Shown one piece after another: positions 39 to 32,257 of a stretch of 64,000 bases of DNA; positions within the stretch are counted from its first letter, which is position 1; every line of letters begins with the position of its first letter. Origin of the DNA: Thermoplasmata archaeon (GTDB lineage Archaea; Thermoplasmatota; Thermoplasmata; Sysuiplasmatales; Sysuiplasmataceae); assembly GCA_021806165.1 (NCBI GenBank), contig JAJZXY010000010.1, positions 1-64,000 of the forward strand. Reading direction: 5' to 3'. The position numbers and the translations under genes are program-made. The notes below the pieces were generated by a model. The model made no database searches. It worked only from the letters and a program-made list of their open reading frames with translations, and was not told the DNA's origin.

Positions 39-125
39 GGGCCCATAGATCAGTGGATGCATCTGCCACTATAGATCGCCGCCTTCGCAAGGCGGAGGCC
101 GCGGGTTCAAATCCCGCTGGGTCCA
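39..125 (+). tRNA. tRNA-Ala (anticodon CGC) with a 14-nt insertion (putative noncanonical intron) in the D-loop
   Basis: Acceptor GGGCCCA/TGGGTCC with G3:U70 (Ala identity pair), D-stem GATC/GATC (48-51/74-77), anticodon arm CCGCC-TTCGCAA-GGCGG (anticodon 86-88 CGC), T-arm GCGGG-TTCAAAT-CCCGC, discriminator A125. D-loop 52-73 is 22 nt. T-run at about 130-135 downstream. Confidence 0.93.
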
Positions 126-32160: not shown

Positions 32161-32257
32161 TGGGCTCATCCGGATTTGAACCGGAGACCTCCGCCGTTTC
32201 GACCCGCATCAGGCGCGGGATGTCAAGGCGACGTCATAACCACTAGACCATGAGCCC
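32161..32257 (-). tRNA. tRNA-Val (anticodon GAC) with a 24-nt canonical intron at 37/38
   Basis: Acceptor GGGCTCA/TGAGCCC plus A; T-arm TCCGG-TTCAAAT-CCGGA; anticodon stem TCGCC/GGCGG; loop TTGACA[TCCCGCGCCTGATGCGGGTCGAAA]C; BHB central helix TTGA/TCGA with bulges CAT and AAC. Confidence 0.95.

Follow-up and report, generated by a model that had tools for sequence, protein, structure and literature searches.

The window analysed here is a 64,000-nt stretch of DNA from a Thermoplasmata archaeon. Near its start lies a tRNA-Ala(CGC) gene whose D-loop (52-73) is 22 nt long, while the D-loops of the genome's remaining tRNAs measure 7-11 nt, tRNA-Thr(GGT) and tRNA-Lys(TTT) excepted. This locus raises the question of whether the loop carries an intron, where such an intron would be cut, and what kind of endonuclease would cut it.

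The tRNA-Ala(CGC) gene and its surroundings

The region 39-125 was identified as a tRNA by Rfam (61 bits). Both features that assign it to tRNA-Ala were found: positions 86-88 hold the anticodon CGC, and G41 and T122 form G3:U70, the identity pair for alanine. This bears out the identity given in a preliminary description of this DNA. All stems and G3:U70 are intact. ARAGORN called the unspliced gene tRNA-Tyr(ata) and, once the insert was removed, tRNA-Ala(cgc); the former call is an artefact caused by the insert.

Upstream, the 3′ end of purB (adenylosuccinate lyase) occupies positions 1-30 on the forward strand, and its stop codon TAG (28-30) lies 8 nt ahead of the tRNA. purB was also found immediately upstream of the intron-bearing tRNA-Ala(CGC) of the family members G001 and G003-G007 (the contig in G002 is too short) and of G354, as well as upstream of an intron-free tRNA-Ala(CGC) in G040, and the loci are therefore orthologous. 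On the other side, a gene for a Mutator/IS256-type transposase (PF00872; 250-1140, reverse strand) immediately follows the tRNA. Since the assembly breaks exactly at the 3′ end of tRNA-Ala(CGC), this element may vary in the population.

Another intact tRNA-Ala(CGC), a possibility raised in the preliminary description, was not found in the genome, whose other tRNA-Ala genes are GGC and a TGC gene with an intron at 37/38. An apparent second copy at G000:C8:92251-92337 was rejected because the end of contig C8 and the start of contig C16 are identical over 127 nt, an assembly overlap; the gene is thus single copy.

Boundaries and conservation of the predicted intron

The D-loop is flanked by GATC (48-51) and GATC (74-77). 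The sequence at 52-73 reads as previously quoted, and the AGTGG/CCACT pairing described beside the GATC/GATC D-stem is indeed part of the minimum-free-energy fold (−43 kcal/mol, z −3.64). The archaeal bulge-helix-bulge (BHB) standard has a 4-bp central helix, flanked at the exon-intron junctions by a 3-nt bulge on either strand. In this frame, 52-73 shows such an arrangement, with the following parts:

39-57 (+): 5′ exon of tRNA-Ala(CGC), positions 1-20 (Rfam 61 bits); D-loop exon part near-invariant across 17 homologues
58-72 (+): predicted 15-nt intron TGCATCTGCCACTAT at position 20/21, with a canonical-frame BHB; intron-free orthologue with D-loop AGTGGAA in G040
73-125 (+): 3′ exon, positions 21-73, including the anticodon at 86-88
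48-51 (+): BHB outer helix, D-stem 5′ strand GATC, pairing with 74-77
52-55 (+): 5′ strand AGTG of the 4-bp central helix, pairing with CACT at 67-70; third pair T-A, T-G or C-G in homologues
56-58 (+): 5′ bulge GA^T, predicted cut after 57; of 17 homologues, 13 have T and 4 have A as third base
59-60 (+): inner helix 5′ strand GC, pairing with 65-66; extended from 2 bp to 3-6 bp in relatives
67-70 (+): central helix 3′ strand CACT, on the intron side, assigned by homologue comparison
71-73 (+): 3′ bulge AT^A, predicted cut after 72; bases 1-2 vary, base 3 is A in 17/17 homologues

Excision of 58-72 restores a standard tRNA of 72 nt with the D-loop AGTGGAA. The preliminary description had proposed the excision of 14 nt (59-72) and a product of 73 nt. 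Comparison of the homologous sequences favours an excised piece of 15 nt (58-72) over one of 14, given the 4-bp helix with its inner helix, the variable position 58 and the product seen in G040, and the spliced tRNA would then have 72 nt, as has the intron-free gene of G040. Of the two 3-nt bulges described earlier, the 3′ bulge ATA (71-73) keeps its place, while the 5′ bulge is GAT at 56-58 in the 4-bp frame and had to be moved. A profile built from 14 intron-free tRNA-Ala(CGC) genes, which includes that of G040 and is thereby slightly biased towards the 15-nt form, scored the sequence at 68.5 bits unspliced, at 78.7 bits with 15 nt removed and at 74.8 bits with 14 nt removed. For the sequence of this gene alone, 0.65% of intron shuffles paired as well as the real intron, and energy folding prefers a 5-bp helix without the inner helix. 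We give more weight to the comparative evidence than to the folding energy of a single sequence in placing this boundary; it is from sequence comparison that the gene, the motif, its boundaries and its conservation are read.

A search of 60 related genomes recovered insert-bearing tRNA-Ala(CGC) in all eight sampled family members and also in G042, which belongs to a different family. With a pattern search of 400 Thermoplasmata genomes, the insert was found in 18 genomes of three families (f1, f20 and f30), comprising eight of the window's own family (that of Candidatus Sysuiplasma) and ten from the two others, and the reversed control pattern gave zero matches in the 400 genomes. Among the 17 distinct homologues, the intron varies from 15 to 23 nt with a variable loop sequence, and the D-loop's exon residues do not change except for T/C at position 16. 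The four standard central pairs are kept in 17/17 sequences and are joined by 2-6 inner pairs. Compensatory changes occur at the third central pair (T-A in 8, C-G in 5, T-G in 4) and at the third inner pair (G-C in 10, A-T in 3, C-G in 3, T-A in 1), and the pairing summed over the 17 D-loops is 142, whereas none of 2000 shuffles exceeded 60. The first intron base is either T (13 sequences) or A (4 sequences), the last two are free, and A always follows the 3′ cut (n=17). The predicted spliced D-loop is AGTGGAA, with AGCGGAA as the f20 form. In G040, the intron-free tRNA-Ala(CGC) has 72 nt and a D-loop AGTGGAA, exactly the 15-nt splice product, and the D-loops of 13 further intron-free homologues end in GGAA, GGTA or GGCA. 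Conservation, compensatory changes and the intron-free orthologue thus lend strong support, at the level of sequence, to the D-loop intron put forward in the preliminary description.

The same genome contains a second 20/21 intron:

G000:C26:1861-1964: tRNA-Thr(GGT) (L036) with two introns, at 20/21 in the D-loop and at 37/38 in the anticodon loop

This D-loop intron shares its architecture and position with that of tRNA-Ala(CGC). It is present in 8/8 family members and, by pattern, in 14 of 400 genomes of the class, in five other families. Its third central pair is A-T, C-G or T-A, and in the window genome the central helix has a U-U mismatch, which makes the motif imperfect. In G017, G028 and G094 the fifth pair of a 5-bp frame is impossible, and the inner helix is kept. 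Intron-free orthologues were found here too: G037 and G045, of the same genus as the carrier G017, have a 72-nt tRNA-Thr(GGT) with the D-loop AGAGGTA, the product predicted by the 4-bp frame. Taken together, the D-loop introns of these genes extend across several Thermoplasmata families; the literature bears out the earlier remark that Thermoproteales are the main group in which such introns have been described.

We consider it very probable that 39-125 is a functional tRNA-Ala(CGC) gene with a 15-nt BHB intron at position 20/21 (58-72), to be removed by EndA and its exons joined by RtcB. The same intron might be removed as 14 nt (59-72) through a 5-bp central helix, leaving the D-loop AGTGGATA. 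Such a helix is present in the minimum-free-energy fold, G56-C66 is conserved among the Ala homologues (G-C in 14, G-U in 3), and the inner helix of the window's gene has just 2 bp. However, a fifth pair departs from the 4-bp archaeal standard and is lost in the three Thr homologues that retain the inner helix, and position 58 varies between T and A, as an intron base would. Moreover, intron-free orthologues end in GGAA and not in GGATA, and the products of the 5-bp frame, AGTGGATA or AGTGGAAA, were seen in no intron-free homologue. The 5-bp frame was rejected on these comparative grounds, and a 14-nt excision appears improbable.

It is very unlikely that the gene has no intron and that the mature tRNA carries a naturally enlarged, hairpin-bearing D-loop. 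The otherwise complete tRNA body and the stable hairpin would agree with this, but the insert varies in length and sequence while the splice-motif geometry is kept in 17 distinct sequences, G19 lies within the 5′ bulge, where its tertiary contact with G18 would suffer, and the syntenic gene of G040 cleanly lacks the insert. We find it scarcely credible that the gene is a decaying or silent copy or an assembly error. It does lie at a contig end, with a transposase gene adjoining; yet no other tRNA-Ala(CGC) was found in the genome, the stems and G3:U70 are intact, gene and insertion are conserved in 18 genomes, and the contig-end duplicate is accounted for by the 127-nt overlap.

The splicing enzymes

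Genes for both enzymes that splicing of a BHB intron calls for were found in the genome, EndA on contig C19 and RtcB on contig C33. For the 15-nt intron, the transcript would form a BHB from the D-stem, the 4-bp helix AGTG/CACT, the inner 2-bp helix and two 3-nt bulges. The single EndA of the genome, a fused two-unit chain of the homodimer type, would make its two cuts 3′ of A57 and T72, and RtcB would ligate the exons to a normal 72-nt tRNA with the D-loop AGTGGAA. We infer this cutting and joining from the established archaeal pathway together with the presence of EndA and RtcB.

EndA has 361 aa, with the Pfam EndA N and C domains twice each. Its catalytic residues Y300, H308 and K339 are invariant and lie in the second unit, so that two units share one triad, as in alpha′2-type EndA. 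The best solved match of its structure model (pLDDT 89, pTM 0.82) is the fused Methanopyrus kandleri EndA 5X89 (TM 0.85); the TM to the dimeric Archaeoglobus fulgidus EndA 1RLV is 0.76. From the fusion and its relatives, the enzyme is presumably a homodimer. It is 64% identical to EndA of Candidatus Sysuiplasma superficiale and 76-80% identical to those of other Thermoplasmata MAGs, and the named relatives in this search are MAGs only. G006, a member of the window's family, has the same EndA sequence as Ca. S. superficiale, which places the source of the window in the Sysuiplasma family. The G042 (f20) enzyme shares 97% identity with the EndA from a Methanomassiliicoccus MAG.

Broad-specificity EndA with a Crenarchaea-specific loop (CSL) or an ARMAN-specific loop (ASL) has a lysine-bearing loop insertion of 11-18 residues beside the active site. 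The preliminary description had suggested inspecting EndA for such insertions. Neither loop was detected: in alignment, the CSL-forming insertion of Aeropyrum pernix is absent from the genome's EndA, and in 110 related EndAs the spacing at the CSL site is 25-27 residues, with no longer insertion. A CSL-like insertion at residues 244-251 (KSARTGKNA) was considered and rejected, since the Aeropyrum CSL lies elsewhere and this stretch aligns without an insertion.

Archaeal EndA reportedly recognises the BHB motif regardless of the mature tRNA body, and the homodimeric EndA of Ferroplasma, another Thermoplasmata archaeon, reportedly cuts minimal BHB substrates (PMC8707768). A strict BHB in a D-loop is therefore a plausible EndA substrate. 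The preliminary description had held that a permissive endonuclease is required, a premise that becomes needless for the Ala intron, because the intron is a strict BHB and the fused dimer-type EndA has no CSL, ASL or other known broad-specificity loop. Imperfect motifs, such as that of tRNA-Thr(GGT) with its U-U mismatch and that of tRNA-Lys(TTT), in which an internal loop adjoins the helix, may be tolerated by this EndA as well.

The genome's tRNA introns and known systems

A census, read partly by eye, took in 42 Rfam genes plus three weak candidates, tRNA-Lys(CTT), tRNA-Lys(TTT) and tRNA-Trp. Of these 45 tRNA genes, 22 are interrupted, a level typical of Crenarchaeota; they contain 24 introns, of which 19 lie at 37/38 and five elsewhere. 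Eighteen of the canonical-position introns fit the 4-bp frame, with standard central pairs at 62/72. Besides the Ala and Thr introns, the T-loops of both tRNA-Lys genes are interrupted:

G000:C8:8398-8492: tRNA-Lys(CTT) (L253), T-loop intron at 59/60, strict BHB TTCG/CGAA with GACA/TGTC
G000:C19:18469-18588 (−): tRNA-Lys(TTT) (L254), T-loop intron at 59/60, strict BHB TCCG/CGGA with GC/GC

Both genes score under the Rfam cut-off. The intron of tRNA-Lys(CTT) also occurs in six other family members. tRNA-Lys(TTT) has a D-loop insertion in addition, probably a 20/21 intron, and comparable inserts occur in many other families. A pattern search of the genome for an initiator tRNA-Met gave no match, nor was tRNA-Arg(CCG) seen in the census; the MAG may lack both, or additional unusual introns may conceal them.

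Among the non-canonical tRNA intron sites listed in the literature is position 20/21, and lineages with alpha4 (homotetramer) or alpha2 (homodimer) EndA are described as having one intron each, at the canonical site (PMC4090602). In Euryarchaeota about 8% of tRNA genes have introns, versus about 48% in Crenarchaeota (PMC4090602). Homotetramer and homodimer EndAs are stated to cut canonical BHB only (PMC4033280), and varied tRNA introns have been tied to CSL or ASL loops (PMC6379350, PMC12397907). The genome of the window does not fit this link between varied introns and CSL/ASL or EndA type. Its introns resemble the non-canonical BHB introns of Thermoproteales and other Crenarchaeota, Nanoarchaeota and Thaumarchaeota in position class (20/21), motif and short length, and in the co-occurrence of 20/21 and 37/38 introns in tRNA-Thr(GGT); in contrast to those, they occur in a Thermoplasmata archaeon, whose EndA is of the fused dimer type. 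Like the alpha′2 EndAs of A. fulgidus (1RLV/2GJW), Thermoplasma acidophilum (2OHC) and Ferroplasma acidarmanus, this EndA has both units in one chain, catalytic Y/H/K solely in the C-terminal unit and no ASL/CSL; unlike them, it has a complete N-terminal repeat within its 361 aa, and its best fold match is 5X89. Many introns in unusual places are also found in genomes with CSL (Aeropyrum pernix) or ASL (ARMAN-2, epsilon-2) EndA, whereas the present EndA has no loop insertion despite a similar intron load.

There is about an even chance that Thermoplasmata of this group combine a crenarchaeal-style intron programme (20/21 and 59/60 introns, a tRNA with two introns, central helices that are imperfect, and interruption of roughly every second tRNA gene) with an EndA of the fused dimer type that has neither CSL nor ASL. 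If so, broad intron tolerance in archaea would be independent of CSL/ASL. In the accepted view, unusual tRNA introns go with EndAs that are heterotetrameric or bear a loop, and 22 of 45 genes interrupted alongside a loop-less EndA makes this co-evolution testable. On its own, the Ala intron adds modestly to a known kind; the noteworthy part is the intron-rich tRNA set together with a loop-less fused EndA. A literature search covering few subscription papers and no tRNA databases found no account of non-canonical tRNA introns in Thermoplasmata, and we claim no priority for them.

Such genes are mis-called or missed by standard tools, as with Ala called as Tyr and both tRNA-Lys below cut-off, and tRNA sets then falsely look incomplete. 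Within the window, a tRNA-Val(GAC) gene (32161-32257, reverse strand) with a 24-nt canonical 37/38 intron was overlooked by ARAGORN. At the ends of contigs C26 and C31 of G000, the long anticodon-loop intron of tRNA-Trp(CCA) (L251/L252) is split over a 127-nt contig overlap; it resembles the known box C/D-bearing kind.
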